Positions 3,654-52,646 of a stretch of 64,000 nt of DNA are shown one piece after another. The notes beneath the pieces were generated by a model. That model saw nothing but the letters and a program-made list of their open reading frames with translations, was not told the DNA's origin and made no database searches. This DNA comes from Variovorax sp. PBL-E5. Lineage in GTDB: Bacteria > Pseudomonadota > Gammaproteobacteria > Burkholderiales > Burkholderiaceae_C. The stretch is taken from the NCBI RefSeq assembly GCF_901827185.1, contig NZ_LR594671.1, positions 3,410,001-3,474,000 on the forward strand, in the 5' to 3' direction. The position numbers were made by a program, and so were the translations under genes. Numbering within the stretch: the stretch's first letter is position 1; each line of letters begins with the position of its first letter.

Positions 3654-4685
3654 ATGGAAGCCCTCGTCATCCACGCCCCCGGCGATTTGCGCGTCGAGGA
3701 CGTGCCCACGCCCGAACTCGGACCCGGCCAGTTGCAGGTGCGCGTGCGCTGCGGCGGCATCTGCGGCTCCGACCTGCACTATTACCAGCACGGCGGCTTC
3801 GGCACGGTGCGCATCCAGGAACCGATGGTGCTCGGCCATGAAGTGGCGGGCGTGATCGAGGCGGTCGGCGCGGGCGCGCCGTTCAAGGCCGGCGAGCGCG
3901 TGGCGATCAGCCCGAGCCGCCCTTGCGGCGTCTGCCGCTACTGCCAGCAAGGCCTGCAGAACCATTGCCTGGACATGCGCTACTACGGCAGCGCGATGCG
4001 CAATCCGCACGTGCAAGGCGCGTTCCGCCAGCAGATCGTGGTCGAGCAGTGGCAGGCGCACCGGCTGGCCGACAGTGTGAGCGACGGCGAAGGCTCGATG
4101 GCCGAGCCGCTGTCGGTCGCGCTGCATGCGGTGCGGCGCGCGGGCTCGCTCCTGGGCAAGAGCGTGCTGGTCACCGGCTGCGGGCCGATCGGCGCGCTGG
4201 CCATCATCGCGGCGCGGCGCGCGGGCGCCACGCACATCGTCGCCACCGACGTCGGCGCGCACACGCTGGGCAAGGCGCTCAAGGTCGGTGCCGACGAAGT
4301 GGTCAACGTGGCGGAAGAACCCGACGGCCTCGCGCGCTTCGGTGCCGAGAAGGGCCGCTTCGACGTGCTGTTCGAGGCCAGCGGCAACGAGCGCGCGCTG
4401 CGCGGCGCTTTCGACGCGCTGCGCCCGCGCGGCATCATCGTGCAGCTGGGGCTGGGCGGCGAGATGACGCTGCCGATCAACACCATCGTCGCCAAGGAGT
4501 TCGACCTGCGCGGCGCCTTCCGCTTCCACGAGGAGTTCGCGGTCGCGGTGGAATTGCTCAACAAGGGGCTGGTCGACGTGAAGCCGCTGATCTCCGCGAC
4601 GCTGTCGTACCGCGACTCGGCGCGTGCGTTCGCGCTGGCGGCGGATCGCTCGCAGGCGATGAAGGTGCTGTTGAATTTCGACTGA
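3654..4685 (+). CDS. idnD: Zinc-dependent L-idonate 5-dehydrogenase-like MDR enzyme
   Basis: This medium-chain alcohol dehydrogenase of 343 residues likely oxidises L-idonate to 5-ketogluconate with NAD(P)+. The catalytic zinc ligands are Cys37 (GGICGSD) and His62-Glu63 (GHE). The structural zinc site is complete, with Cys91, Cys94, Cys97 and Cys105. A Rossmann stretch GCGPIGALA lies near residue 180. With the SDR upstream it forms the two-step idonate-to-gluconate path. No idonate or gluconate transporter is in the cluster. A sorbitol or xylitol dehydrogenase is a possible alternative from sequence alone. Confidence 0.82.
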   Translation: MEALVIHAPGDLRVEDVPTPELGPGQLQVRVRCGGICGSDLHYYQHGGFGTVRIQEPMVLGHEVAGVIEAVGAGAPFKAGERVAISPSRPCGVCRYCQQGLQNHCLDMRYYGSAMRNPHVQGAFRQQIVVEQWQAHRLADSVSDGEGSMAEPLSVALHAVRRAGSLLGKSVLVTGCGPIGALAIIAARRAGATHIVATDVGAHTLGKALKVGADEVVNVAEEPDGLARFGAEKGRFDVLFEASGNERALRGAFDALRPRGIIVQLGLGGEMTLPINTIVAKEFDLRGAFRFHEEFAVAVELLNKGLVDVKPLISATLSYRDSARAFALAADRSQAMKVLLNFD

Positions 4686-4697
4686 GCGATCCGCTCA
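4683..4697. terminator. Short hairpin spanning both stop codons of convergent genes
   Basis: TGAGCG-ATC-CGCTCA is a perfect six-pair inverted repeat whose outer triplets are the stop codons of the two convergent genes. It could fold in both transcripts. There is no T-run, so terminator function is uncertain. Confidence 0.3.
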
Positions 4698-5468
4698 CTT
4701 GCCGATCAACTGCGTCAGCCGCTCCGCCTCGAAACATTCGGAGCGCGCCGCATCGCCGGGCACGCAGTCCTTCTTGCCCGGCTGCGCGGACAGCGACTCG
4801 ATCGCCTGCCACAGCAACGCGATCTGGTGGTCCTGGCCGGACGCGGTATCGATCAAACCCTTCATGGCCTGCGACAGCGGATCGTCCTCGAGCGTGATGC
4901 CGTAGGCCGAGAATTTCTTCTCGCCGGTCGTCACGTCGGCGCTGGCGCCGGCCTTCGACGGAATGATGCGCGCCGGAATGCCCACCGCGGTCGCGCCCGC
5001 AGGCACCGGCTTGATCACCACCGCGTTGCTGCCGATCTTGGCGCCGTCGCCGACCACGAAGCCGCCGAGCACCTTGGCGCCCGCACTGACCACCACGTCG
5101 CGCCCCAGCGTCGGATGCCGCTTGGCGCCCTTGTAGAGCGAGGTGCCGCCGAGCGTCACGCCCTGGTAGATGGTGCAGCCGTCGCCGATCTCGGCGGTCT
5201 CGCCGACCACCACGCCCATCGCGTGGTCGAAGAACACGCGCTCGCCGACGACGGCGCCGGGATGGATCTCGATGCCGGTGAACCAGCGGGAGCACTGGGA
5301 GATCCAGCGGCCGGTCCACTTCAGCCCGTGGCACCAGCACCAGTGCGCGAGGCGGTGCAGCACCACGGCATGCAGGCCGGGGTAGAGGGTCAGCACTTCC
5401 CAGCGCGTGCGGGCGGCCGGATCGCGGTCGAGGATGCACTGGATGTCGGAACGCAGGCGCGAGAACAT
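4695..5468 (-). CDS. cysE: Serine O-acetyltransferase
   Basis: CysE acetylates L-serine with acetyl-CoA to O-acetylserine, the committed step of cysteine synthesis in the cytoplasm. The 257-residue product has an N-terminal helical segment (MFSRLRSDIQ) and a left-handed beta-helix of hexapeptide repeats from about residue 70 to 170, containing the family hallmarks HPGAVVGE, FFDHAMGVVVGETA and GGTSLYKG. The C-terminal tail beyond the helix is about 70 residues. trmJ lies 35 bases upstream on the same strand, so the two are probably co-transcribed. Confidence 0.93.
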   Translation of the reverse strand: MFSRLRSDIQCILDRDPAARTRWEVLTLYPGLHAVVLHRLAHWCWCHGLKWTGRWISQCSRWFTGIEIHPGAVVGERVFFDHAMGVVVGETAEIGDGCTIYQGVTLGGTSLYKGAKRHPTLGRDVVVSAGAKVLGGFVVGDGAKIGSNAVVIKPVPAGATAVGIPARIIPSKAGASADVTTGEKKFSAYGITLEDDPLSQAMKGLIDTASGQDHQIALLWQAIESLSAQPGKKDCVPGDAARSECFEAERLTQLIGK

Positions 5469-5503
5469 GCGGGTTGTGGTTCTATCGATAGGGCCTGCGC
5501 AGT

Positions 5504-6265
5504 CTAAGGCCCCGGTTCTTCGCTTGCGGCAGGTGGGGTCTTGGGCGTGCCTTGCGCGGCCTCGGTCATCGCCTTCGCGATGCCGCGCAGGATATGGATC
5601 TCCTCCTGCGTCGGCTGCGCGCGGTTGAACAGCTGCTGCAGCCGCGGCATCAGCTTCTTGGGCGCCTGCGGATCGAGAAAGCCAACGTCCACCAGCGCGC
5701 GCTCCCAGTGCCCGAGCATCCCGGCCAGCGCCTGCGCGTCGGCCGCGCTCGCGGGCGGCGTGGCGTCGCGCACGCCGTAGCCGCCGAGCGCGAGCCGCCA
5801 TTCGTAGGCGATCACCTGGATCGCGGCGCCCAGGTTGAGCGAGCCGAAGTCCGGATCGGTCGGGATGCTGAGCGCGACGTGGCAGCGGTACACGTCCTCG
5901 TTGCGCATGCCGAAGCGCTCGGAGCCGAACAGGAAGGCGACGTGCTGCTCGCCCGCCTGCGCCAGCGGTTCCAGATGCTCGCGCGGCGTGCGCGTGGGCG
6001 GGCCGAAGTCGCGCGGCACCATCGCGGTCGCGCACAGGTGGGTGATGCCGTCGAGCGCCTCGTCCAGCGTCTCGACGATGCGCGCGTTGGCCAGCACGTC
6101 GAGCGCGCCGCTGGCACGCTGGATGGTCTCCTCGCGCCGCAGCACGTTGGCCCAGCGTGGCGCGACCAGCACAAGGTCGCCGAAGCCCATGGTCTTCATG
6201 GCGCGCGCGGCGGCGCCGACGTTGCCGGCATGGCTGGTCTGGATCAGGACGAATCGGGTACGCAT
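5504..6265 (-). CDS. trmJ: tRNA (cytidine/uridine-2'-O-)-methyltransferase TrmJ
   Basis: This SPOUT-class RNA methyltransferase of 253 residues is expected to methylate the 2'-O of the anticodon-loop nucleotide 32 of tRNA using S-adenosylmethionine. Family signatures are the N-terminal VLIQTSHAGNVGAAARAMK and the C-terminal knot GSERFGMRNEDVYRC plus SLNLGAAIQV. ATG 6265 starts right at the conserved N-terminus. It diverges from suhB across 91 bases, an arrangement also found in E. coli. The last 20 residues are Ala/Pro-rich and not part of the fold. Confidence 0.92.
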   Translation of the reverse strand: MRTRFVLIQTSHAGNVGAAARAMKTMGFGDLVLVAPRWANVLRREETIQRASGALDVLANARIVETLDEALDGITHLCATAMVPRDFGPPTRTPREHLEPLAQAGEQHVAFLFGSERFGMRNEDVYRCHVALSIPTDPDFGSLNLGAAIQVIAYEWRLALGGYGVRDATPPASAADAQALAGMLGHWERALVDVGFLDPQAPKKLMPRLQQLFNRAQPTQEEIHILRGIAKAMTEAAQGTPKTPPAASEEPGP

Positions 6266-6356
6266 GTAAAATGCCCCGATTCTCGCCGCCCGCATCGCCG
6301 GGCTGCATTCCAAGGCGCGTTTCGCACGCGGCCCTTCCCGTTCTTCCCACAATCCA

Positions 6357-7391
6357 ATGCCGTCCCCCAACCTGCACCCCATGCTCAACGTGGCCGTCAA
6401 GGCCGCCCGCGCCGCCGGCGCCATCATCAACCGCGCCGCGCTCGATGTCGAAGCGGTGCGCATTTCGCAGAAGCAGGTCAACGACTTCGTGACCGAAGTC
6501 GATCATGCGAGCGAGCGAGCGATCATCGAGACGCTGCTCACCGCCTACCCGGGGCACGGCATCCTGGCCGAGGAATCGGGCACCGAGCATGGCGCCAGGG
6601 ATTCGGACTACGTCTGGATCATCGATCCGCTCGATGGCACCACCAACTTCATCCACGGCTTCCCGGTCTATTGCGTGTCGATCGCGCTCGCGATCCGCGG
6701 CAAGATCGACCAGGCCGTGATCTACGACCCGACCCGCAACGACCTCTTCACCGCCACCCGGGGCCGCGGCGCCTACATGAACGACCGCCGCCTGCGCGTG
6801 AGCAAGCGCACGCGGCTCGCCGAGTGCCTGATCTCGACCGGCTTCCCGTTCAGGAGCGGCGACAACTTCAAGCAGTACCTGGCCATCATGGCCGACCTGA
6901 TGCCGCGCGCAGCCGGCCTGCGCCGCCCCGGCGCGGCCGCGCTCGACCTGGCCTATGTCGCGGCCGGCTTCTCCGACGGCTTCTTCGAAACCGGCCTGAG
7001 CATCTGGGACGTGGCGGCAGGCTCGCTGCTGGTGACCGAGGCGGGCGGCCTGGTCGGCAACTTCACCGGCGAGCCCGACTTCCTCGAACAGCGCGAGATT
7101 CTCGCGGGCGCGCCGCGCATCTACGGACAGCTGGTGCCGCTGCTGGCCAAGTACTCGAAGTTCGCCGGCGTCGACGACAAGCTGCGTGCCAGCGAACGCG
7201 TGCGCGCGGTCGACCCCGCCGCCGCGCCCGGTCATGCCTATGCGCGCAGCAGCATCGATGCGATGTCGCCGCCCGCCGAGGCCGAGGGTGCGGCCGAAGC
7301 CGCACCCGCCGCGCCCGTGCAGCGCAAGCTCACGCGCATCCGCCGCGAAGCTCCCGTCGCCCCCGTCGAAGGCGACCCGCGCGCCAAGTGA
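6357..7391 (+). CDS. suhB: Inositol-1-monophosphatase family protein SuhB with a C-terminal extension
   Basis: This Mg2+-dependent phosphatase hydrolyses inositol monophosphates; in E. coli SuhB also takes part in rRNA transcription antitermination. Signatures in order: [27 protein letters not shown], the metal ligands EESG and [13 protein letters not shown], and [15 protein letters not shown]. The product has 344 residues while E. coli SuhB has about 267. The extra 75 or so residues (from about 270) are Ala/Pro-rich and end in a basic patch, [10 protein letters not shown]. The stop codon overlaps the ATG of the next gene, so translation is probably coupled. Confidence 0.92.
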
Positions 7392-9616
7392 TGCAGGCGC
7401 TCCGCGCCAGCGCGCGCAGCCGCGCGGCCCTGCGCGTCGCGCTGAGCCACTACGTCGCGAACGGGCTGTCGGTCGCGTTCGGCCTGCTGCTGATCTCGGG
7501 CGGCGTGCATGTGTTCATGGGTCCGCTGGCCGCGGCCGCCGCGGCCACGGGCGTGATCGTCGCCTCGCCGCCCGACCTGGCGGCGCCGCGCCGCGGCAAG
7601 TTCCTGCAGATGCTGCCGGCGCCGCTGATCGGGCTGCCGCTCTTCTTCGGTGTGCAGCTGGTGCATGCCGATCCGCTGCGCCTCGGGCTGGTGCTGGTGC
7701 CGGCGACCTTCCTCGCCTTCCTCGGCATGGCCTGGGGCAAGCGCGGCATTCCGATCGCGATCGCGGTCACCTTCTCGATGATCTTCTCGATGGCCACGCA
7801 CGCGCCCACGGGCATCGACGAGGCGGTCGAGCGCACGCTGAATTTCGGGCTCGGCGCCGCGCTCTACGTGGTCTACGCGACGCTGGCGAACCTCGCGCTC
7901 AACGCGCGCTACCGCGTGCAGGTGATGGCCGACATCGTGTTCTCGCTGGCCGCGCTGATGCGCCTGGAAGCGCGCCAGTTCACGCCGCGCGATGAAGCGG
8001 ACGACGTGCGCAAGACGCCGGCCTCGATGCTCGGCCAGCTGCTGCGGCAGCAGGCGGCGCTGGCCGACCAGTTGCAGGGCGCGCGCGACATCGTGCTCGA
8101 ATCGCCGCGCACGCCGCGGCGCCAGAAGCTGGCCGGCATGCTGATTGCCGTGATCGAGATGCGCGACCAGCTGCTGGCCAGCGAGCTCGACCTCGACGCG
8201 CTGCGCGCGCATCCGGGCCATGGGGAGGCGCTGGCCGAGATGCGCGGCGTGCTCGAGACACTGGCCGACGAGATGACCGCGCTCGGCGATGCGCTGCTGC
8301 TCGGCCGCCAGCCCGCGGCGATGCTGGACCGCCGGCCGCAGCTGGCCGCCATCGCGCTGCAGGACGACGGCCAGCGCAAGGGCCACGCCGGGCCGACCAC
8401 CGCCGTGCTCGGGCGCGGCCTGGCGAGCCGCATCGGCCACATCAACGACGAGGTGCTGCACCTGGTCGCACTGGCCCGCGGCGACGCGCAGCCCGACCTC
8501 GCACTCGTGCGCGCGAACTGGCAGATGTTCGTGAGCCCCACTGCATGGTCGCTCAGCCCCTTCTTCACGCTGTGGCGCTGGGACGCGCCGCCGCTGCGCC
8601 ATGCGATCCGCGCGACGCTCGCGATCGCGACCGGCTACGTCATCGCGGTGTTTCTGCCCTGGGGCTCGCACGACTACTGGATCCTGCTGACCATCATCGT
8701 GGTGCTGCGCGGCAGCCTGTCGCAGACGCTGGAGCGGCGCAACAGCCGCGTGGGCGGCACGCTGGTGGGCTGCGTGTTCGCGGTCGGCCTGCTGTCGACG
8801 CATCCCTCGCCGGTCACCCTGCTGATCACGGTCACCGTGGCGCAGGCCGTCGCCCATGGCTTCGCGATCCGGCGCTACATCATCACGGCCGTATCGGCCA
8901 CCGTGCTCGGGCTGGTGCAGGCGCACATGCTCTACGTCGGCGTCGGGCCGACCTTCGCGCTGTTCGAGCGGATCGCCGATACGCTGATCGGCGCGGCGCT
9001 GGCCTGGGCCTTCTGCTACGTGCTGCCGTCGTGGGAGCGCAGCCAGATCCCGGCGCTGGTGGCACGCACGCTGACCGCGCAGGCACGCCATGCGCGGCTC
9101 GCGCTCGGGCTCGGCCAGCTGCGCGCGGTCGACAGCAGCCCCGAGCTCGAATGGCGACTGGCGCGGCGCGAGGCCTTCGACAGCCTGTCGGCGCTGGTGC
9201 AGGCGACGCAGCGCTCGCTCTCCGAACCGCGTGCCGTGCGGCCGCCGATCGAGGCGCTCGAGCATCTGCAGGCGCACAGCTACCAACTGCTCGCCCAGCT
9301 GAGTGCCGTCAAGTCGATGCTGGTGCTGCGGCGCGACCGGCTGACGCCGGCCGAGGTCGAGGGCCCGCTCGCGCGCACCGCGGAACGCATCGAGGCGCTG
9401 ATCGGCGCCACGCCCACCACCGGGCCGTCGATGCCGGAAAGCGGATCCGCCACCGCGCTCACCGGGCCGATCCCGCTGCCCGACCCTTTCGACAACGACA
9501 TCAGCCCCTGGCTGCTGCGCCGGCTCGACCTGGCGACCGGCATCGCCGCGCAACTGCGCGAGGATGCGGCGCGCATCCTGCAATCCCTCGACGACGAAAG
9601 ACTCCGCCCCGCCTGA
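7391..9616 (+). CDS. FUSC/YccS-type inner-membrane protein (aromatic acid exporter family)
   Basis: This 741-residue membrane protein has two blocks of hydrophobic helices, about residues 20-175 and 395-545, each followed by a long helical soluble region. This is the layout of YccS/AaeB-like FUSC proteins, which are linked to efflux of aromatic acids. The second block contains RATLAIATGYVIAVFLPWG and the family-like RNSRVGGTLVGC. The ATG overlaps the suhB stop, and the stop overlaps the MscS ATG, so suhB, this gene and the channel form one translationally coupled operon. The transported substrate is unknown. Confidence 0.82.
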   Translation: MQALRASARSRAALRVALSHYVANGLSVAFGLLLISGGVHVFMGPLAAAAAATGVIVASPPDLAAPRRGKFLQMLPAPLIGLPLFFGVQLVHADPLRLGLVLVPATFLAFLGMAWGKRGIPIAIAVTFSMIFSMATHAPTGIDEAVERTLNFGLGAALYVVYATLANLALNARYRVQVMADIVFSLAALMRLEARQFTPRDEADDVRKTPASMLGQLLRQQAALADQLQGARDIVLESPRTPRRQKLAGMLIAVIEMRDQLLASELDLDALRAHPGHGEALAEMRGVLETLADEMTALGDALLLGRQPAAMLDRRPQLAAIALQDDGQRKGHAGPTTAVLGRGLASRIGHINDEVLHLVALARGDAQPDLALVRANWQMFVSPTAWSLSPFFTLWRWDAPPLRHAIRATLAIATGYVIAVFLPWGSHDYWILLTIIVVLRGSLSQTLERRNSRVGGTLVGCVFAVGLLSTHPSPVTLLITVTVAQAVAHGFAIRRYIITAVSATVLGLVQAHMLYVGVGPTFALFERIADTLIGAALAWAFCYVLPSWERSQIPALVARTLTAQARHARLALGLGQLRAVDSSPELEWRLARREAFDSLSALVQATQRSLSEPRAVRPPIEALEHLQAHSYQLLAQLSAVKSMLVLRRDRLTPAEVEGPLARTAERIEALIGATPTTGPSMPESGSATALTGPIPLPDPFDNDISPWLLRRLDLATGIAAQLREDAARILQSLDDERLRPA

Positions 9617-42370: not shown

Positions 42371-42865
42371 ATGACTCAAAGCTACAAGCAGATTCAACGG
42401 CAAATCGAGGCACTCCAGCAACAGGCGGAAAAATTGAAGAAGAAGGAAGTGGGAGGCGTCATTGGCCGCATCAAGGAGGCGATTGCGCACTATGGGTTGA
42501 CTGCAGACCAGCTCTTTGGAGGCAAGTCCGGCGGCAGCAAGCCGAAGGCGGCCAAGGCTGTCTCCGCCGCGCCTCAGTCGGTCAAGTACGCGGACGGCCA
42601 AGGCAACGCGTGGTCGGGTCGAGGCCCGCGTCCGCATTGGCTGCGCGACGCATTGAAGGCGGGAAGAGCACTCGATGAGTTCGCAACCGCAGGGTCTTCG
42701 CCCGCAAAGACAATGCGCAGCGCAGCGAAGGCTTCGAAAGCGAAGAAGCCCAAAGCGAAGTATCGCGACCAGGCCGGAAACAGCTGGAGCGGCATGGGTC
42801 CGCGCCCGAGGTGGCTCAAGGAGGCGATGGCGGCCGGAAAGTCGCTGGAAGAACTCACTGCGTAG
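42371..42865 (+). CDS. H-NS family nucleoid protein with two DNA-binding domains
   Basis: This 164-residue protein has an N-terminal coiled-coil oligomerisation segment (residues 2-30) and a short second helix region. It then carries two copies of the H-NS C-terminal DNA-binding domain, at about 72-104 (KYADGQGNAWSGRGPRPHWL) and 130-162 (KYRDQAGNSWSGMGPRPRWL), joined by a Lys/Ala linker. Most H-NS/BpH3-type proteins of this order have one copy. H-NS proteins bind AT-rich or curved DNA and silence genes. It converges on the motor-like operon. Confidence 0.9.
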   Translation: MTQSYKQIQRQIEALQQQAEKLKKKEVGGVIGRIKEAIAHYGLTADQLFGGKSGGSKPKAAKAVSAAPQSVKYADGQGNAWSGRGPRPHWLRDALKAGRALDEFATAGSSPAKTMRSAAKASKAKKPKAKYRDQAGNSWSGMGPRPRWLKEAMAAGKSLEELTA

Positions 42866-42937: not shown

Positions 42938-43627
42938 TCAGCCGGACCTGCCGCGAGCCGTCTTCCGATTACTTTCGGCACGCGGGGCATTTGTGCCTGA
43001 CGGGGCACGGCCCGCATCTGCCTGATCGAGCCAATGCAACACGTCGACATAGGACATGAACCGGTTCAGGTATTCCGGCGAAAGATCACGCATCAATATG
43101 AGAGATCGATGCACAAGCTGATGCGAGTTGAGAGGGCCGGCATTCTCCGGCACCTTCGCCAGTGACTGCAGCAGGCGCCGCTCGGCACTGAGCCGCGACC
43201 AGGTGCTCCTGAAATATCGGAGCGCCTTCAGTTCGGGATGGGGAGCGAGACTCGGCGTGCCATCACTTGCTGTTGCGCCGCTCTCGCGGGCAGAGGCACG
43301 CCGGTCGATGTCGTCGACAAGCTCGGCCAGCGCCCCGCGATCGGGTCGGCCTTCCTGCTTCGCATCCGCCGCCGGTGGTGCCGGTGGGCCATCCGCGCGA
43401 CGGGCCTTGGCGAGATCCCCGCCATACACGGCCAGCAGCTTGACGACCTTGTCGTCCAGGATGCGTCGCGCTTCGCCGTGGTGGACGGATGCCCGCGCGG
43501 CCAGCGCTTCGATGAAGTGAAAGCGCACGGGATCGAATCGATGATCGCCACGCTCGCGCCGCGCGTGAACCATCCCGGCGGGGTCGGTGGCCTCCATGCC
43601 CGTTGCGCAGGGCTTGCCGCTACTCAT
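42938..43627 (-). CDS. DUF2894-type protein of the motor-like operon
   Basis: This 229-residue protein appears to match DUF2894 and has no known function. Residues 1-120 include a helical part (FHFIEALAARASVHHGEARR) and a disordered Pro/Ala-rich linker. The C-terminal helical core, about 125-210, holds the most conserved-looking patterns: LKALRYFRSTWSRLSAERRL, AGPLNSHQLVHRSL and LSPEYLNRFMSYVDVLHWLD. It has no signal or membrane segment, so it is probably cytoplasmic. The start overlaps the MotB-like gene by 8 bases. It may be the output or assembly partner of the membrane motor. Confidence 0.75.
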   Translation of the reverse strand: MSSGKPCATGMEATDPAGMVHARRERGDHRFDPVRFHFIEALAARASVHHGEARRILDDKVVKLLAVYGGDLAKARRADGPPAPPAADAKQEGRPDRGALAELVDDIDRRASARESGATASDGTPSLAPHPELKALRYFRSTWSRLSAERRLLQSLAKVPENAGPLNSHQLVHRSLILMRDLSPEYLNRFMSYVDVLHWLDQADAGRAPSGTNAPRAESNRKTARGRSG

Positions 43628-44267
43628 GGGACTTGAGATTTCCGTCGGATCGCCTGGGCGTGGGCGCTATTTCCACGCGCCGGTTGCGGGCGCGTCCGTC
43701 GGCATCGGCATTCGATGCCACTGCTTGTTCGGACCCGAAGGCAGCGGCGAACAGCGAGGCCGACGGCATGCCTTCCTCGATCAGCGTCCGTGTCACCGTC
43801 AAGGCGCGCTGCGCCGACAGTTCCCAGTTGTCGGCGAACTGGCGGTTGCCGCCGCGAACCTGCCGGTCGTCGGTGAAGCCGCTGACCATCAGAATCTCGT
43901 CGCGAGCCTGCAGATAAGCGGCCAAGGGTGCAGTCAGGCTCCTCAGCAGTTGCCGGCCTTCGGGCTGCAATTCAGCGGAGTTGAAGGCGAACAGCACGCT
44001 GCCATTGATGCCGATGCGCCCGTTGCTGAGCGTCACCCGGCCTGTCGCCAAGGGCCCTGCCAGGGCTTGCTCGAGGGCCATTCGGCGCTGCGCTTCCACC
44101 TGCCGCTGATGGACTTCGGCTTCCAGCTTTGTCGCGAGCTCGAACTGCATGCCGAGCACGCACACCAGGATCAGCACGAAGGCGCCCAACATCCCCGCCA
44201 TGAGGTCGCCGAAGACGGCCCATACCGGCACGGTCGGCTCCAGGCCGGCATCCATCTCCTCCCTCAT
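43620..44267 (-). CDS. MotB/ZorB-like OmpA-domain protein
   Basis: This 215-residue protein has one membrane helix at residues 14-38, preceded by a short cytoplasmic tail. It begins VWAVFGDLMAGMLGAFVLIL, with Asp21 where MotB and ZorB carry their ion-conducting aspartate. A short coiled linker (45-70) leads to an OmpA-like peptidoglycan-binding domain (about 85-205) with VSGFTDDR, NWELSAQRA and GRARNRRVEI. It should be the wall-anchored subunit of an ion-driven motor, with the upstream MotA-like protein as partner. The genes overlap by four bases. Confidence 0.88.
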   Translation of the reverse strand: MREEMDAGLEPTVPVWAVFGDLMAGMLGAFVLILVCVLGMQFELATKLEAEVHQRQVEAQRRMALEQALAGPLATGRVTLSNGRIGINGSVLFAFNSAELQPEGRQLLRSLTAPLAAYLQARDEILMVSGFTDDRQVRGGNRQFADNWELSAQRALTVTRTLIEEGMPSASLFAAAFGSEQAVASNADADGRARNRRVEIAPTPRRSDGNLKSHE

Positions 44268-46357
44268 CGCGCGTCGGCGTCCACGAGGGCCTGCTTGCTG
44301 CCGAGGCGCTGCAGATCGTCGACGATCTGCTTCTGCGACATGATGCTCAGGTCGATGACCTCCCTCGCCTGCGCGACGTAGTACGCCAGCTGCTCGTCGC
44401 TGCGCGCGATGGACTTGCCCAGCGTTCCTTCGATGCGCTGCAGATGCGTGCCGAGCTTGTCGTTCGATTCGCTGAACAGCTGAACGGCAAAGCCGAATGC
44501 GTCGCCCAGGCTCGCCACTTCGACGGCACTGCCGGTGATCTGCGCGGCGACAGCGGCCATCTTGCCGGTCTGCGCATCGACCGTGTCCGTGAAGCGGCTG
44601 CCGACCCGGTCCAGCATTTCCGCCGACGAGGTGACCAACGCGTCGATGGCCGTTCGCTGCTCGCCGGACGCATGGTTCACCGCGTCGAGCAGTGTCTCGA
44701 GCACGCTCAGCATGCGGCTGCGTTCCTCCAGCATCGCGTTGTCGCGCGCCATGCTGTCGGAAAGCTTCTGGCGCAGCTCGGCCACCACCTCGGCTGCGGC
44801 ACGAGGCGCCTCGGCGGCGGCTTGCAGCAGCCGGGCGATCTCGGCGACCGTGGTCTCTGCGTGTGCGCCCGTCTGTGCGGACATGTCGCGGGCGGTCTGC
44901 GCCAGCGTTTCGCAGAGCTGCTGCTGCGCACCGAGGGTCTGCGCGCCCGTTTGCTGCCATTCCTGCTGCAGCGAGGCGGCCATGGCCGACAGCGCATGCG
45001 TCCAGGCCGACAGCCGCTGCTCATCGCGCAATGCCGTTCCCGCCTGCAGGTCGGCATGCGCCTGGCCCACGTTGCGCAGCAGCGAGTCCGCGTGCTGCCC
45101 GAAGCTCGCCGCCACCGTGGCCAAGGCCTGGTGCGCATCCTCCGACTGCTTCTCGCTGACCCGCTGATGCTGCGCAAGGACGCTGTCCCAGGTGTCCGAC
45201 ACACGGGCCATCGTGCTTTCCAGACGGCCGCCGACCTCCTGCACCAGAGAGGCCGAACGCTGTTCGAAGCTTTCGGCAAAGTGGTCGTGCGCGTGGCGCA
45301 GCGCCTCGGACAGCGCTTCGCTCGTATGCCGGTGCTCGGCGAGCGCGGTCTTCCAGGTCTGCGCCACGCTGGTGTGGGTGGCTTCGAAGCGGATCGACAG
45401 ACCGTCGAGTTGCTGCTGCACGGTGTGCGCGACGGTCTCGTGCAACCCGGCGGTTTCGCGCGCGATCCCTGCCATCGTGGCTTCGACGACCGGCTGGATC
45501 GTCGCGCCGGCGATGCGGGCGCTTTCGCTCAGGCTCTGGTTCAAGGATTGCCCGACGGAAGAGGCCAGACTGGCGTATGCGGCCTCGGTCTTGCGATGGA
45601 AGCTGTCCTGGCCGGCGGCCAGGCGCTCGTTCAGCGCTTCGCTTTGCCGTTCCATCGTCGCCATCATGCGTTGCAGCCGATCGGCCAGCTCGGGCATCGC
45701 CTGGTCCTGCCGCTGCAGCAGCTTGAAGGATTCCTCGCGCTGATGGGCCAGGGAGAAGCCACGCAAGGTGGTCGCAATCCGCTGGTCGAGCCTTTGTCCC
45801 GCCTGCAGCCGCTCGCGCCGGCACAACGCCGAGGCGAGGCCCAGCATCGCGGAAGCGGCCACGCCCGCGACCGATGTCCCGAAGGCCAATCCCAAGCCCT
45901 TCACGGGGGCGGACAGGGAGGCGCGGATGGCCTGCAGGTCGGTCGCGCTCTCCAGCGCGATGCCGGTGCCCTTCAGCGTGACGACCATTCCCAGGAACGT
46001 GCCCAACATGCCCAGCAACACCAACAGCCCGGCCAGGTACGGCGTCAGCGCCGGGCCGGGCAAGCCAACGCGCTCACCTTCGATCCGCAGGCGCACCGCG
46101 TTTTGCAGGGAAGGATCCAGCTGCTCGAGCCAGGGGCCGAGGCTCGCCGGGGGATCGCGCAGGTCCGCCGTGGCGCGAGTCAAGGTGGACGTGGCCTGGC
46201 GAAAGCGCTGCAATTCCAGCGCGCCCATCAGGTAGAACGCGGCGACGAACACCGTGATGGCCAACGCCAACGGGCTCGAACCGACGTAGCCGGCAGCGGC
46301 CCAGCACACGGCGGCCAGGCCGGCGACAAGGACGGCGTGATGAAGAAATCTATTCAT
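44264..46357 (-). CDS. MotA/ZorA-like membrane protein with long coiled-coil tail and DUF802 repeats
   Basis: This 697-residue protein has four predicted membrane helices (about 8-25, 28-45, 105-127, 154-175). The third, YLAGLLVLLGMLGTFLGMVV, and the fourth, GLGLAFGTSVAGVAASAMLG, have the look of MotA/TolQ/ExbB/ZorA pore helices. About 520 residues follow as a continuous helical, Ala/Gln/Glu-rich cytoplasmic tail. Within it, about 329-378 and 385-430 are related repeats (V-x2-TW-x3-LA-x-H, then SF-x-Q-x3-SL), consistent with DUF802. A pore subunit with a huge tail is the ZorA design. The function of this version is unknown. Confidence 0.85.
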   Translation of the reverse strand: MNRFLHHAVLVAGLAAVCWAAAGYVGSSPLALAITVFVAAFYLMGALELQRFRQATSTLTRATADLRDPPASLGPWLEQLDPSLQNAVRLRIEGERVGLPGPALTPYLAGLLVLLGMLGTFLGMVVTLKGTGIALESATDLQAIRASLSAPVKGLGLAFGTSVAGVAASAMLGLASALCRRERLQAGQRLDQRIATTLRGFSLAHQREESFKLLQRQDQAMPELADRLQRMMATMERQSEALNERLAAGQDSFHRKTEAAYASLASSVGQSLNQSLSESARIAGATIQPVVEATMAGIARETAGLHETVAHTVQQQLDGLSIRFEATHTSVAQTWKTALAEHRHTSEALSEALRHAHDHFAESFEQRSASLVQEVGGRLESTMARVSDTWDSVLAQHQRVSEKQSEDAHQALATVAASFGQHADSLLRNVGQAHADLQAGTALRDEQRLSAWTHALSAMAASLQQEWQQTGAQTLGAQQQLCETLAQTARDMSAQTGAHAETTVAEIARLLQAAAEAPRAAAEVVAELRQKLSDSMARDNAMLEERSRMLSVLETLLDAVNHASGEQRTAIDALVTSSAEMLDRVGSRFTDTVDAQTGKMAAVAAQITGSAVEVASLGDAFGFAVQLFSESNDKLGTHLQRIEGTLGKSIARSDEQLAYYVAQAREVIDLSIMSQKQIVDDLQRLGSKQALVDADAR

Positions 46358-47093
46358 GGCAGTCTGGTGGCCTCATGCGAAGGGCTTCGAGCAGCCCTTC
46401 GATCGGTTGCATTCGAAAATCAAGTTCGGCGAGGAGCAGGTCCTGCATGTCCTTGCAGAACAGATCCAGCCACTCGCCGGGTGGCGTCGTGTTGTCGGGA
46501 TCGATCGACGCCTGTGCTGCCTGGCGCAGGCGCTCGAAATGCCTTGCGAGCCCTGCGGAAGCCGCCGTCAGCAAGCTGCGCTCGCGCGCACCCAGCACCT
46601 GTTCCATCACCACGTCCACGGCAGCAAGCCGGGCCATGGCAGGCGATCGGGCCGCCAGCGCCGCCCGCAGCCGGCTGCGCAACGGGGCGATGCTCGATTC
46701 CATGGCCTGTTGCCGGGCAAGGTAGCGCTGACGGTAGGGCTTGAAGGCGGCTGTCGTGGCCGTGGTGTCTCCGGGCGTCGACGCACGCAGGCGCCGGCCT
46801 TCTTTGTCGGTCGTGGAGAGGCCATCCTCGGCGATCGCATTCTTCAATGCGGTTCGCACGCGGGCGTATTCGCCTTCCTCGGCGCGGCTGGAGGCCCGGG
46901 CGCCGGCGGGCGCAGGCGCCAGGCCACCATTCAGTGCCGCGGACAGCGAGATGGCATCCGTCCAATCGAACCATTGGCTCAATCGATCCGCAGTGGCCTG
47001 TCCGGATTCGCGGACTTCGGTGCCGGTCAGCCGAGAGAGCACGCACACCAGCGCCGAGCCGTTGAAACCTGTGCGCTGTGAAACGTGCGCCAT
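46350..47093 (-). CDS. DUF3348-type protein, first gene of the motor-like operon
   Basis: This 247-residue protein appears to match DUF3348, a family without a known role. The N-terminus, RTGFNGSALVCVLSRLTG then LSQWFDWTDAISLSAALNG, is the conserved part. The middle is basic and helical (YRQRYLARQQAMESSIAPLR), and the end is helical (EWLDLFCKDMQDLLLAELDF). No signal or membrane segment is present. ATG 47093 follows AGGCGG and is preferred to an upstream in-frame start. It overlaps the MotA-like gene by 8 bases, so its production is probably coupled to the motor. Confidence 0.75.
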   Translation of the reverse strand: MAHVSQRTGFNGSALVCVLSRLTGTEVRESGQATADRLSQWFDWTDAISLSAALNGGLAPAPAGARASSRAEEGEYARVRTALKNAIAEDGLSTTDKEGRRLRASTPGDTTATTAAFKPYRQRYLARQQAMESSIAPLRSRLRAALAARSPAMARLAAVDVVMEQVLGARERSLLTAASAGLARHFERLRQAAQASIDPDNTTPPGEWLDLFCKDMQDLLLAELDFRMQPIEGLLEALRMRPPDCHE

Positions 47094-47209: not shown

Positions 47210-47854
47210 CTAGTCCGACAACCGTGTACGCAGCGCCCGCACCGCGCTGTCGACGGTGGTCAGCACCGGCAGCCCCGATGCCAGTTCGCAGGCCTGCCGC
47301 GCACGGGCCATGCTGAACTGGGCCAATGCGATGCGCGTGCAGCCGCGCGCGCACAACAGCGCCGCCTGTGCGGCGATGAGCCGGTCGTGCGTCTCCCCGT
47401 CGCCGCGGTTCAACGCGTCCATCGCGCCGTCGGCCAGCGCGGGTTCGAGTGCCATGCCGGCCGGAAACTCGGGCGGCATCGACGCCAGCGTCGGCGCGAA
47501 GGTGGCGATGAGCCCGAGCTTGCCGGCACCCGCCGCCGCATCCGCCACCATCGCCTCGTTGGGCTTGAGCACGGGCAGGCCGGCATGCCGCTGCGCGACG
47601 GCCTCGATGCAGGGCCCGAAAGCCGAGCAGGTGAAGAGGATGCCCTGCGCGCCGGCGTCGACCGCATACTGCGTCAGCCGCTGGAAGCGCTCGTGCATCG
47701 CGGCGTCGAGCCCTCGGCCGCTGCGTGCGAGATCGGTCGAGAGGCTGTCGTCGAGCAGGTTCATCCGCGACGCCTGCGGCCAGTCGCGTTCGAAGGCGGC
47801 GTTGATCGGAGCGACCGAATGGCTCAGCGCGTGGATGAGGGCAATGCGTGTCAC
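47210..47854 (-). CDS. Aspartate/glutamate racemase superfamily protein
   Basis: This 214-residue protein has the racemase-superfamily fold pattern: RIALIHALSHSVAPINAAF at the start and the first catalytic cysteine in GILFTCSAFGPCIEAV. At the place of the second cysteine it reads RIALAQFSMARA, with no Cys, so classic two-base racemisation is doubtful. A decarboxylase, isomerase or one-base role is possible. The start is GTG 47854, three bases after the NodT stop, so it trails the efflux operon. No functional link to efflux is evident. Confidence 0.8.
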   Translation of the reverse strand: MTRIALIHALSHSVAPINAAFERDWPQASRMNLLDDSLSTDLARSGRGLDAAMHERFQRLTQYAVDAGAQGILFTCSAFGPCIEAVAQRHAGLPVLKPNEAMVADAAAGAGKLGLIATFAPTLASMPPEFPAGMALEPALADGAMDALNRGDGETHDRLIAAQAALLCARGCTRIALAQFSMARARQACELASGLPVLTTVDSAVRALRTRLSD

Positions 47855-47856
47855 GG

Positions 47857-49350
47857 TCAAGGACTGGTTCTCGGTGCGGAGGCGGAAGGCGCGGGCGCCG
47901 AGGCCCCCTCGCCGTCCCATCCGGCCTGCCAGCCGCCGCCCAGCGCCTGGATCAGCGTGACGGCCGCGTTCTGGCGGCTGACCTGCAGCTGGATCAGCGT
48001 GCGCCGTGCGCTCAGCGCCGAGGCCTGCGCGGTCACCACGTCGGTGTAGCTGACCTGCCCTTGCCGATAGCGGTTGAGCAATTGCTGCTCGGTGCGGTCC
48101 GCCGCCTCCGAGGCTTCGCGGCGCAGGCCGTCCTGCTGCGCCAGCCGGCTGCCGGCGGTGAGCTGGTCCTCGACGTTCTGGAATGCGGTCAGCGCGGTCT
48201 GGCGATAGCGCGCGACGGCCGCATCGCGCGTGGCCGTGGCGGCATCGACGCGTGCACTGATCGCGCCCGCATCGAACACCGTCTGCGCCACCGAGAGACC
48301 GAGCGACCACAGCGTGTTCGAGGCGCCGAACAGATCGCCCACGCGGCTCGCGGTGCTGCCGACCGAGGCACTGAGCGACAGGTTCGGGTAGTAGGCCGAG
48401 CGCGCGATGCCGATCTGCGCATTGGCCGACGCCACGTCGCGTTCCGCGGCGGCGATGTCGGGCCGGCGCTGCAGCAGCGTCGAGGGCACGGCGAGCGGAA
48501 TGCCCGGCACGGTCGGCGTCCAGTCGGCGGCCGGCAGGCTGAACTCGGCCGGCGCGGCACCGGTCAGCACCGCGATCGCATGCTCCAGCGCGTCGCGCGT
48601 GCGCTGCAGCGCGACGCGGTCGGCGCGCGTGTTGACCAGCAGCGTCTGCGCCTGCAGCACGTCGGTCTGCGCGGCGATGGCGGCGTTGTAGCGGTTGCGC
48701 GTGATCTCATAGCTGCGCTCGTAGCCTTCGATGGTCTCGGCCAGCAGCTTGAGTTCGGCATCGGCCTCGCGCAGCGAGAAGTAGTTGGTCGCCAGATCGC
48801 CCAGCGCCGAGAGGCGGGCCGCGGCCAGGTCGGCCTCGCTCGCCTGCGCGCTGGCCTGCGCGCCCGTCACGGCCAGACGCAGGCGGCCCCACACGTCGGG
48901 CGCCCAGTCGGCGCCGAGCGAGGCATTGAACGAATTGCTGGGCGTGGTGTTGCGCGCGCCCGAACGGGTGGCGCCGCCGCCGAGCGAGACCGACGGAAAG
49001 AGCGCCGCACGCTGCTCGCGCACCAGCGCCTGGGCCTGCGCATAGTTGGCGACGGCGGCGGCGATGTTCTGGTTCGATACCTGCACGCGCTGCGCCAGCT
49101 CGTCGAGCTTCGCATCGCCGAAGAGCTTCCACCATTCGCCGCGGTCCAGCGCATCGGCCGGCGCCGCGGGCAGCCAGCCCTGGGCCGTGGGCGCTTCCTT
49201 CCAGGCCGCAGGCAAGGCGGTGGTGGGACGCTCGTAGGCCGGCCCGACGGCGCAGGCGCTCAGGACCGCCGCCAGGGCCAGCGCCATGGACGTTCGTGCG
49301 AGGCGGCGGCTCGGGCGGCCGCGGAGGGATGGGCTGTTCGGTGCGGTCAT
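47857..49350 (-). CDS. NodT/OprM-type outer-membrane efflux lipoprotein
   Basis: This 497-residue protein is the TolC-like channel of an RND pump. The signal ends in the lipobox LSAC (Cys about 33) and CAVGPAYERP, typical of NodT-family lipoproteins. Two repeats of coiled-coil helices follow (NIAAAVANYAQAQALVREQR and its partner near RLAQQDGLRREASEA), plus RRPDIAAAERDVASANAQIG, a family hallmark. It lies 15 bases after mdtC, so the pump carries its own outer-membrane exit. Confidence 0.93.
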   Translation of the reverse strand: MTAPNSPSLRGRPSRRLARTSMALALAAVLSACAVGPAYERPTTALPAAWKEAPTAQGWLPAAPADALDRGEWWKLFGDAKLDELAQRVQVSNQNIAAAVANYAQAQALVREQRAALFPSVSLGGGATRSGARNTTPSNSFNASLGADWAPDVWGRLRLAVTGAQASAQASEADLAAARLSALGDLATNYFSLREADAELKLLAETIEGYERSYEITRNRYNAAIAAQTDVLQAQTLLVNTRADRVALQRTRDALEHAIAVLTGAAPAEFSLPAADWTPTVPGIPLAVPSTLLQRRPDIAAAERDVASANAQIGIARSAYYPNLSLSASVGSTASRVGDLFGASNTLWSLGLSVAQTVFDAGAISARVDAATATRDAAVARYRQTALTAFQNVEDQLTAGSRLAQQDGLRREASEAADRTEQQLLNRYRQGQVSYTDVVTAQASALSARRTLIQLQVSRQNAAVTLIQALGGGWQAGWDGEGASAPAPSASAPRTSP

Positions 49351-49365
49351 GGGTTCAGGCGGCGA

Positions 49366-52300
49366 TCATGCTGGAGCGCCGGGACCGGCGGCTCGGGCCA
49401 GGTGTTTTTCGTTGGCCGGGCGCCGGCGCAGCTTGTCGAGCAGCACGTAGACGACCGGCGTGGTCAGCAGCGTGAGCAGTTGGCTCGCGATCAGTCCGCC
49501 GATGATGGCGACGCCCAGCGGCTGGCGCAACTCGGCGCCGAGGCCGAAGCCGATCGCGAGCGGCAGCGCGCCGAGCGCGGCGGCCAGCGTGGTCATCAGG
49601 ATCGGGCGGAAGCGCAGCATGCAGGCCTCGCGCACCGCTTCGGTCGCGGTCAGCCCGCGCGCGCGCTCGGCCTCGAGCGCGAAGTCGATGATCAGGATGG
49701 CGTTCTTCTTGACGATGCCGATCAGGAGGAAGACGCCGATCAGCGCGATGATGGAGAACTCCATGCGGAACAGCAGCAGCGCCAGCACCGCGCCCACGCC
49801 GGCCGAAGGCAGCGTGGTCAGCACGGTGATCGGATGGATCAGGCTTTCGTAGAGCACGCCGAGCACGATGTAGATCACCACCAGCGCGGCCAGGATGAGC
49901 AGCAGCTGCTGTCCCTGCGACTGCTGCGCGGCGAGCGCCGTGCCCTGGAAACTGCCGCGCACGTTGATCGGCATCGCGATGTCGGCCTCGGCCTCGGCGA
50001 CGATGGCCTTCGCGTCGCCCAGGCTCACACCGTCGGCGAGATTGAACGAGACGGTGCTCGAGAGCTCGGTGTCCTGGTGGTCGATCGAGGTCGGCACCGC
50101 GCGCTCGCGGAGTGTGGAGAAGGCCGCCAGCGGCACCATCGGCGTGACGGCGGTCGCGACCTGCTGGCCGGCGGACGAGGTGCGCGAGGCGGGGTTGGCC
50201 GAGGTGACCGTCGAGGTCCCGCTGCTGGCGTCGGTGTTGAGCTGCAGCGAACTCGTGATCGTGTTGCCGCTCGCGGTCGTGACCGAGTTCAGCGTCGACG
50301 GCACGTAGACGTCCTTGAGCACGATCGGCGAGCGCTGGAAGCGCGGCGCCCATTCCATGATGACCGAATACTGATTGAGTTCGTCGTAGATGGTCGCCAC
50401 CGAACGCTGGCCGAAGGCGTTGTAGAGCGCGTTGTCGACCGCGCTCGAGGTCACGCCCAGGCGCGCGGCGGCGTCGAGGTCGACGTCGACGTAGGTCTCG
50501 ACACCATTGTCTGCATCGTCGCTGTCGACATCGGTCAGCTTGGCTTCCTGGCGCAGGCGATCGGCCAGCTTCGTGGACCAGGTGCGCAAGTCGGCGAGGT
50601 TGTCGCTCTTGAGCGTGTACTGGTAGGCTGAATTGCTCGTGCGCCCGCCCATGCGCAGATCCTGCACCGGGCTCAGGAACACGCGCAGGCCGGTCAGCTG
50701 ATTGAGCTGCGGACGCAGGCGGTCGATCACCGCATTGGTCTTCTCGCTGCGCTCGGAGATGGGCTTCAGGTTGACGAACATGAAGCCGCCGCCCGCGCGG
50801 CTGCCGCCCGCGAAGCCGACCACCGTGTCGACCGCCGGATCCTTGTGGATGATGTCCACGGCCGCCTTCAGCTTGTCGGCGATCGCCACCGACGAGATAC
50901 TCTGGTCGGCCCGCAGCCCGGCATTGAGCTGGCCCACGTCCTGCTGCGGAAAGTAGCCCTTCGGAATCGCGCTGAACAGGTAGATGTTGAGCCCGATCAC
51001 CGCCAGCAGCACCAGCATCACCACGCCCTTGCTCGCCAGTGCCCAGTCCAGGCTGTGGGCGTAGGTGCCCAGGGTCCATTCCCAGGCGCGTTCGGCCTTG
51101 CTGCCGAGCCAGGCGCGCACGCGGCCCGGCGGCTCGCCCTTTTCCTCGGCCTCGCTGCGCAGCAGCATGGCGCACAGCATCGGCGTGGTGGTGAGCGAGA
51201 TCACGAGCGAGATCAGCACCGAGGCCGACAGCGTGACCGCGAACTCTCGGAACAGCCGCCCGACCTGCCCGCCCATGAACAGCAGCGGGATGAACACCGC
51301 CACCAGCGACAGGCTGATCGACAGCACCGTGAAGCCGACCTCGCGCGCGCCGCGCAGCGCGGCCTCCATGCGGTTCATGCCGGCCTCCACGTGGCGCATG
51401 GTGTTCTCGAGCACCACGATGGCGTCGTCCACCACGAAGCCGGTCGCGACCGTGAGCGCCATCAGGCTCAGGTTGTTGAGGCTGTAGCCCAGCAGGTGCA
51501 TCACGCCGAAGGTGCCGAGCAGCGACACCACGGTGGCGACCGCGGGAATGATGGTGGCGCGCGCCTTGCGCAGGAACAGGCCGACCACCAGCACCACCAG
51601 CACGATGGAAATCATCAGCGTGCCCTCGATCTCGCGCAGCGAGGCGCGGATGGAGTTGGTGCGGTCCGACGCGACCTGGATGTCGATGTCCTGCGGCAGC
51701 TGCGCGCGCAGCTCGGGCATCAGCTTGCGCACGCCGTCCACCGTGTCGATGATGTTGGCGCCGGGCGACTGCGTGACCAGCACGATCACCGCGGGCTCGC
51801 CGTTGAACAGGCCCAGCGTGCGCGTGTTCTCGACGCTGTCGATCACGCGCGCCACGTCGCCCAGCCGCACCGCGGCGTTGTTGCGCCAGGCGATCACCAT
51901 GTCGCGGTAGGCGTCGGCGCGCAGGCCGGGCGCGGGCGTGTAGATCTGCATGCGGCGGTCGGCGGTCTCGATCGCGCCCTTGGGCCGGTTGGCGTTGTTG
52001 GCCTGGATCGCGGCGCGCACGTCCTCGCTGCTGATGCCCAGGCGATTCAGCGCGAAGGGTTCGAGCTCGACCCGCACCGCCGGCAGCGAGCCGCCGCCGA
52101 TCTCGACCTCGCCCACGCCTTCGACCTGCGACAGCCGCTGGCTGACGATGTTCGAGACCGCGTCGTAGATCTGGCCCGGCGTGCGCGTCTTGGAGGTCAG
52201 CGCGATGATCATGATCGGCGCTGCGGTCGGGTTGCGCTTGCGGTAGGTCGGGTTGCTGCGCAGCGTGGCGGGCAGGTCGACGCGCGACGCGTTGATGGCG

Positions 52301-52629
52301 GCTTGCACCTCCCGCGCGGCGCTGTCGATGTTGCGGCTGAGGTCGAACTGCAGCGTGATGCGGGCAGCCCCGGTCGAACTCGTCGAAGTGAGTTCGTTGA
52401 CGCCGGGGATGATGCCCAGGCGGCGCTCCAGCGGCGTGGCCACGCTCGAGGCCATGGTGCTCGGGCTCGCGCCCGCCAGGCTGGCCTGGACCGAGATGGT
52501 CGGGAAGTCGACCTGCGGCAAGGGCGAGACCGGCAGCACGAAGAAAGCGACGATGCCGGCCAATGCGATGCCGATGGTCAGCAGCACCGTGGCGATCGGC
52601 CGCTCGACGAAGGGCTTGGAAAGGTTCAT
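49366..52629 (-). CDS. mdtC: RND efflux transporter, MdtC-like
   Basis: This 1087-residue inner-membrane proton antiporter has 12 predicted helices and two large periplasmic loops. NLSKPFVERPIATVLLTIGI starts the protein. The proton-relay aspartate pair is in [15 protein letters not shown], and the second half repeats the plan ([19 protein letters not shown]). Two adjacent RND genes behind one adaptor define MdtABC-type heterotrimeric pumps, which export bile salts, novobiocin and other compounds in E. coli. ATG 52629 has GAGGGG eight bases upstream. A strong hairpin separates it from mdtB. Confidence 0.92.
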   Translation of the reverse strand: MNLSKPFVERPIATVLLTIGIALAGIVAFFVLPVSPLPQVDFPTISVQASLAGASPSTMASSVATPLERRLGIIPGVNELTSTSSTGAARITLQFDLSRNIDSAAREVQAAINASRVDLPATLRSNPTYRKRNPTAAPIMIIALTSKTRTPGQIYDAVSNIVSQRLSQVEGVGEVEIGGGSLPAVRVELEPFALNRLGISSEDVRAAIQANNANRPKGAIETADRRMQIYTPAPGLRADAYRDMVIAWRNNAAVRLGDVARVIDSVENTRTLGLFNGEPAVIVLVTQSPGANIIDTVDGVRKLMPELRAQLPQDIDIQVASDRTNSIRASLREIEGTLMISIVLVVLVVGLFLRKARATIIPAVATVVSLLGTFGVMHLLGYSLNNLSLMALTVATGFVVDDAIVVLENTMRHVEAGMNRMEAALRGAREVGFTVLSISLSLVAVFIPLLFMGGQVGRLFREFAVTLSASVLISLVISLTTTPMLCAMLLRSEAEEKGEPPGRVRAWLGSKAERAWEWTLGTYAHSLDWALASKGVVMLVLLAVIGLNIYLFSAIPKGYFPQQDVGQLNAGLRADQSISSVAIADKLKAAVDIIHKDPAVDTVVGFAGGSRAGGGFMFVNLKPISERSEKTNAVIDRLRPQLNQLTGLRVFLSPVQDLRMGGRTSNSAYQYTLKSDNLADLRTWSTKLADRLRQEAKLTDVDSDDADNGVETYVDVDLDAAARLGVTSSAVDNALYNAFGQRSVATIYDELNQYSVIMEWAPRFQRSPIVLKDVYVPSTLNSVTTASGNTITSSLQLNTDASSGTSTVTSANPASRTSSAGQQVATAVTPMVPLAAFSTLRERAVPTSIDHQDTELSSTVSFNLADGVSLGDAKAIVAEAEADIAMPINVRGSFQGTALAAQQSQGQQLLLILAALVVIYIVLGVLYESLIHPITVLTTLPSAGVGAVLALLLFRMEFSIIALIGVFLLIGIVKKNAILIIDFALEAERARGLTATEAVREACMLRFRPILMTTLAAALGALPLAIGFGLGAELRQPLGVAIIGGLIASQLLTLLTTPVVYVLLDKLRRRPANEKHLARAAGPGAPA

Positions 52630-52646
52630 GCCCAAAGCCCCTCGGT

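Follow-up and report, generated by a model that had tools for sequence, protein, structure and literature searches.

The operon at positions 42938–47093 of the window (the whole stretch of 64,000 nucleotides of Variovorax DNA analysed here) is classified from its protein sequences as Zorya type III, and as such is an additional example of an already named defence type. All four of its proteins match PADLOC models of type III (the ZorA3, ZorB3, DUF3348 and DUF2894 families), and DUF3348 and DUF2894 match type III models only, even at E ≤ 10. The genes lie on the minus strand, with a transcription order of DUF3348 (46350–47093, 247 aa; PADLOC PDLC00658 2.2e-89, PF11828 2.9e-81), ZorA-like or ZorA3 (44264–46357, 697 aa; PDLC00649/00650, E = 0), ZorB-like or ZorB3 (43620–44267, 215 aa; PDLC00651 4.7e-113, PF00691 OmpA 1.4e-18) and DUF2894 (42938–43627, 229 aa; PDLC00652 1.7e-77, PF11445 1.9e-62). 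A sequence-only reading of the window had described four genes overlapping by 8, 4 and 8 bases, and the minus-strand ORFs bear this out (46350–46357, 44264–44267 and 43620–43627, respectively). The Zorya-like stator that it had recognised can also now be assigned to a type using PADLOC.

Type III was defined from 6,401 loci with ZorA, ZorB, DUF3348 and DUF2894 as its members (Payne et al. 2021, PMC8565338), and our operon has the identical four protein families with no categorical difference, being distinguished by its presence in Variovorax and by a ZorA tail with two DUF802 repeats. It should be noted that the names of the two partner proteins conflict, with DUF3348 referred to as ZorF and DUF2894 as ZorG in Payne et al. 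and in Mariano et al. (2025, PMC11890865) but with these labels swapped in PADLOC-DB (DUF3348 is ZorG3 and DUF2894 is ZorF3), and for this reason we refer to both by DUF number. In NCBIfam the ZorA protein falls under the cut-offs of the named ZorA models (best 44 of 100 bits), and ZorB3 is filed merely as a hypothetical protein (PRK09040). The DUF2894 protein is most similar to one of Variovorax sp. SRS16, with which it shares 95% identity.

The operon has in common with Zorya types I (ZorABCD) and II (ZorABE) a MotA-like ZorA with a long helical tail and a ZorB with a membrane Asp and an OmpA domain, but here these are accompanied by DUF3348 and DUF2894, and ZorC, ZorD and ZorE were not found. 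No ZorC or ZorD was found beside zorAB, where 37 ORFs within ~10 kb of the operon (36 of at least 200 aa plus an H-NS gene, scanned without a G+C filter) have no PADLOC match at 1e-10, and no HNH family of the kind expected for the type II nickase ZorE was seen in the four proteins or in eight Pfam-scanned neighbours. The earlier statement that no Zorya effector genes are present is correct where type I and type II effectors are concerned; type III, however, has DUF3348 and DUF2894 as its own named components, so that partner genes can be regarded as missing with respect to types I and II only. The same reading had left the role of the operon open, and in part this can be narrowed, as the type III operon of another species, Stenotrophomonas nitritireducens, is reported to make at least one of the phages tested plaque less efficiently on E. 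coli and to protect E. coli cultures against PVP-SE1 at MOI below 0.1 (PMC8565338).

Merged hydropathy windows place the membrane segments of ZorA3 at about residues 8–26, 29–47, 108–126 and 157–175, which leaves a tail of ~520 residues and agrees with the four membrane helices and long tail originally described from the ORF. A profile of the ZorA3 core gave one good match in the PDB, to the type I ZorA chain 8VVN (2.6e-6); the single sequence matched no ZorA chain in the PDB, and ZorA3 had no match to PF01618 (MotA_ExbB) at E ≤ 1. Within the tail, Pfam identifies two 55-residue DUF802 repeats (residues 323–375 and 378–430). Conservation across 63 loci is 0.90 at residues 101–125 and 151–175, which correspond to membrane helices 3 and 4, falls to 0.35–0.56 over residues 301–500, and is 0.91 in a near-invariant block close to the C terminus (651–675). 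The stretch aligned to residues 211–500 varies from 142 to 635 residues with 0 to 5 recognisable ~55-residue repeats, and the distance from the fourth membrane helix block to the tail-end block varies about threefold, from 351 to 1021 residues (139 of 140 proteins with 63 distinct values, taken from two locus sets which overlap in some genomes). In contrast, component size is described as well conserved inside each family for the types covered by the structure paper (PMC11890865), and type III therefore appears freer in this respect. With head and end both fixed and only the rod between them variable in length, the tail end may be the working part of the protein. We also considered whether tail length changes in steps of 11 residues, as a hendecad pattern might be read from the 55-residue DUF802 unit, and this was rejected (R = 0.134, p = 0.31). 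In one relative (L036, genome G014, ~4647–7690) ZorA3 is spread over two overlapping ORFs, perhaps through a frameshift or an assembly error.

ZorB3 has one membrane segment (residues 22–40 by hydropathy windows) and matches MotB structures as well as MotB-family models, the latter under their cut-offs, and these features together with the OmpA match support the description of a MotB/ZorB-like protein carrying Asp21. Conservation of this residue had been set beforehand as a point on which the stator proposal could fail, and Asp21 was found to be invariant in 43/43 relatives in the set collected using DUF3348 and in 77/77 of the set collected using the ZorA core. In the predicted peptidoglycan-binding domain, D133, L150, R154 and R197 are each retained in 76/77 proteins with one gap and R192 in 75/77, and all five are conserved in the first set too. 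Judged by motif spacing, they would correspond to D188, L199, R203, R259 and R254 of the type I ZorB, respectively, where mutation of L199, R203, R254 or R259 is reported to disrupt wall binding and defence (PMC11890865). The type I protein also has an essential His (His186) two residues before the wall-binding Asp, whereas at the motif level ZorB3 has Phe in 43/43 proteins of the first set, and Phe in 70, Tyr in six and a gap in one of the 77 proteins of the second. Defence by types I and II is described as dependent on the Asp and the peptidoglycan domain of ZorB, and also on the tail of ZorA (PMC11890865).

Both partner proteins are predicted to be helical, with DUF3348 modelled as an all-helical bundle of long helices (AF2 mean pLDDT 74, pTM 0.73) and DUF2894 with long low-confidence stretches (mean pLDDT 63, pTM 0.33). 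Neither has an enzyme family above cut-off in Pfam or PADLOC, and neither has a PDB fold match at E ≤ 0.001 (with VIA-align used for DUF3348 only); the DUF2894 model is, however, too weak to rule out a hidden enzyme.

The four genes form an ordered unit which we have never seen broken up. In the family sample of 150 genomes, DUF3348 occurs in 44 and ZorB3 in the identical 44, indicating linkage that is more than chance. Of 44 loci examined (the window plus 43 relatives), 43 have all four genes on one strand and in one order as judged by their stop codons, with a contig end cutting through the remaining locus. As this set was conditioned on DUF3348, we note that the ZorB and ZorA searches were free of that condition; the ZorA-core search recovered 568 relatives, and the best 80 comprised 74 complete loci and six cut by a contig end. 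DUF3348 and ZorB3 also occur in the identical 27 plasmid records. The proposal that the four genes are conserved together, another point on which the original reading could have failed, has therefore held in 43/44 and 74/80 loci with all seven exceptions at contig ends, and the suggestion that DUF3348 and DUF2894 are partners of the motor is supported by this strict linkage; the two have also been put forward as ZorAB regulators (PMC8565338).

No fifth gene recurs next to this unit, as the commonest Pfam family appears 5 times among 132 proteins adjoining complete loci (one ORF per side of no more than 700 aa and with third-position G+C >0.72, a filter which may drop foreign low-G+C genes). 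Among the same 132 proteins the PADLOC models for SspA, DndA, GlgB and mad2 were matched once each, and we take the SspA, DndA and GlgB matches to be ordinary relatives. In the window, Pfam found no flagellar or Tol/Ton gene among eight neighbouring ORFs. The flanks of 22 loci from the genus are common only to groups of seven, three, two and two loci, and the window operon has single flank ORFs in common with two of the genus loci.

ZorB3 was found in 95/100 genomes of its own genus (84/86 good ones), in 88/91 genomes of a second genus from elsewhere in the class (84/86 good ones) and in 51/60 genomes of a third from another family of the order (47/54 good ones), always as a single copy, though it should be noted that the second and third genera were selected for having a positive member. 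At wider scales the distribution is patchy, with the operon present in 39/126 genera of the family sample and ZorB3 in 23/397 genomes and 14/231 genera of the phylum sample. There was no match among 50,697 phage records and no confirmed relative among viral contigs, and the 27 plasmid records bearing the operon range from 366 kb to 3.5 Mb with 7/27 predicted to be mobilizable. Taken together, these results indicate that the operon is retained almost throughout these three genera while its location shifts, and that its occurrence varies from genus to genus. Mariano et al. describe the distribution of the three Zorya types as typical of anti-phage systems (PMC11890865), but within these three genera type III looks near-core. 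What our analysis adds to the published descriptions is the single-copy, near-universal presence in three genera, the PADLOC-free surroundings of ~10 kb, and plasmids which are all at least 366 kb.

One PADLOC model for type I ZorB matched 1/100 genus genomes and 7/397 phylum genomes, and one type I protein query matched a single plasmid record; these are lower bounds obtained with one of several PADLOC ZorB models and do not provide a rate comparison with type III. The sole match in the genus (G211:C82:13264-13866, 7e-35) is in a genome which also has ZorB3, and three genomes of one genus (G444, G408 and G449) each have two type-I-like ZorB genes ~4 to 5 kb apart.

We compared Zor and RpoB distances in 50 of the 52 searched genomes (two with a short or missing RpoB frame were omitted). 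Inside the genus the two were correlated (rho 0.478, 0/500 permutations) and the nearest neighbour was in the same genus in 21/21 cases, and between genera agreement was weak (rho 0.127, 31/500 permutations); for DUF2894 alone, the values were 0.224 (41/500) and 0.013 (200/500), respectively. Vertical inheritance throughout was set aside because of the weak agreement between genera, for which neither inter-genus transfer nor saturation is excluded. The proteins diverge quickly, with mean differences within the genus of 0.40 for DUF2894, 0.36 for DUF3348, 0.26 for ZorA and 0.19 for ZorB, compared with 0.03 for RpoB. At the one place shared by seven Variovorax loci, ZorB (91%), ZorA (86%) and DUF3348 (80%) lie inside the 76–96% range of the flanking ORFs (which are unvetted as genes) and DUF2894 alone (67%) lies under it; allelic replacement or an arms race at a fixed site was set aside, since only DUF2894 fell under the flank range.

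We consider it probable that this operon encodes a type III Zorya motor whose signal is delivered at the end of the ZorA tail, with DUF3348 and DUF2894 acting as adaptors or regulators. By analogy with types I and II, an inner-membrane ion motor would be built from five copies of ZorA and two of ZorB. In this scheme, disturbance of the wall by a phage would lead ZorB to grip the peptidoglycan, ions passing Asp21 would turn ZorA, and the ZorA tail would bring this motion into the cytoplasm. In type III the output would be at the conserved tail end, which may be the docking place for DUF3348 and/or DUF2894, and these might serve as helical adaptors or regulators which cause infection to fail either by bringing in a host factor or by gating the motor; the reason for suggesting this role is that neither protein matched an enzyme family. 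Structures and DNA-acting effectors are described for types I and II (PMC11890865), and among the matches listed in our literature search, the scope of which was mostly outside subscription papers, there was no paper on the structure or mechanism of type III. Should the output consist of these two helical proteins and nothing more, cells would be protected by an ion-driven motor without DNA cutting, which would be a different anti-phage route. A more speculative and improbable extension of this is that type III is no mobile cassette but a resident, near-core and nuclease-free motor of several proteobacterial genera, with the tail acting mechanically via DUF3348 and DUF2894 on the membrane or nucleoid, and that types I and II are mobile offshoots which have gained nucleases.

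Several points count against this best explanation of a type III defence motor, among them the low NCBIfam scores of ZorA, the filing of ZorB3 as a hypothetical protein and the lack of a type III mechanism paper in the listed literature. In Burkholderia cenocepacia K56-2, infection is reported to change the expression of the leading gene, or leading two genes, of the predicted Zorya I and Zorya III systems, but a CRISPRi screen with phage Bcep176 found that none of the predicted defence systems, Zorya III among them, altered fitness (PMC12584637). The screen covered one phage and one host, with too few guides for 3/34 predicted genes, and its authors offer several reasons for a miss (PMC12584637), but the result means that native defence is unproven. 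Near-core status and few adjoining defence genes are also unusual for a mobile defence system. The fitness result and the near-core status could be accommodated if the operon instead encoded a resident motor with housekeeping duties, either in the envelope or in wall sensing, and phage protection in E. coli were a side effect, a proposal which also fits the lack of matches in phage records and viral contigs and the scarcity of PADLOC matches nearby (none in the 37 window ORFs and at most 4 among the 132 adjoining proteins). We nonetheless regard this as unlikely, as it has to set aside the protection seen in E. coli (PMC8565338), patchiness between genera in both the family and phylum samples, flanks which differ inside one genus, rapid protein divergence and the mobilizable plasmids, and two of the three genera in which the operon is near-universal were selected via a positive member.

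An equally doubtful possibility is that the operon provides the sensor and motor half only, with killing undertaken by a host nuclease encoded elsewhere. The ZorAB proteins of types I and II have been proposed to recruit nuclease-type partners (PMC11890865), and here neither DUF protein matches an enzyme family above a cut-off or a PDB fold at E ≤ 0.001, and no neighbouring family occurs more than 5 times in 132. However, the four cloned genes protected E. coli (PMC8565338), so any extra factor must exist in E. coli too, and the poor DUF2894 model leaves room for an enzyme within the operon itself. Far less probable than either is a flagellar or accessory MotAB-type stator. The operon does have the general ion-driven motor layout in common with MotAB, TolQR and ExbBD, as seen in the homology of ZorB and in that of the ZorA core to the type I ZorA, and the MotB-family and MotB structure matches of ZorB could be read in this way; but it differs in the long tail and the lack of a PF01618 match in ZorA, which lies outside the six MotA/ExbB places found in a genome-wide search (7.09 Mb in four contigs), and in having eight Pfam-scanned neighbours without a flagellar or Tol/Ton gene.

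Finally, a scan of the operon region for the sigma-70 consensus returned 0 sites (0.3 in shuffles). Downstream, an H-NS-family gene (42371–42865, plus strand) is convergent with the operon with 72 bases between the ends, and two stretches of its protein match the H-NS C-terminal domain. Upstream of the operon, the minus strand at 47210–52635 carries an Asp/Glu racemase-like gene followed by genes for an outer-membrane efflux protein and an AcrB-type pump.
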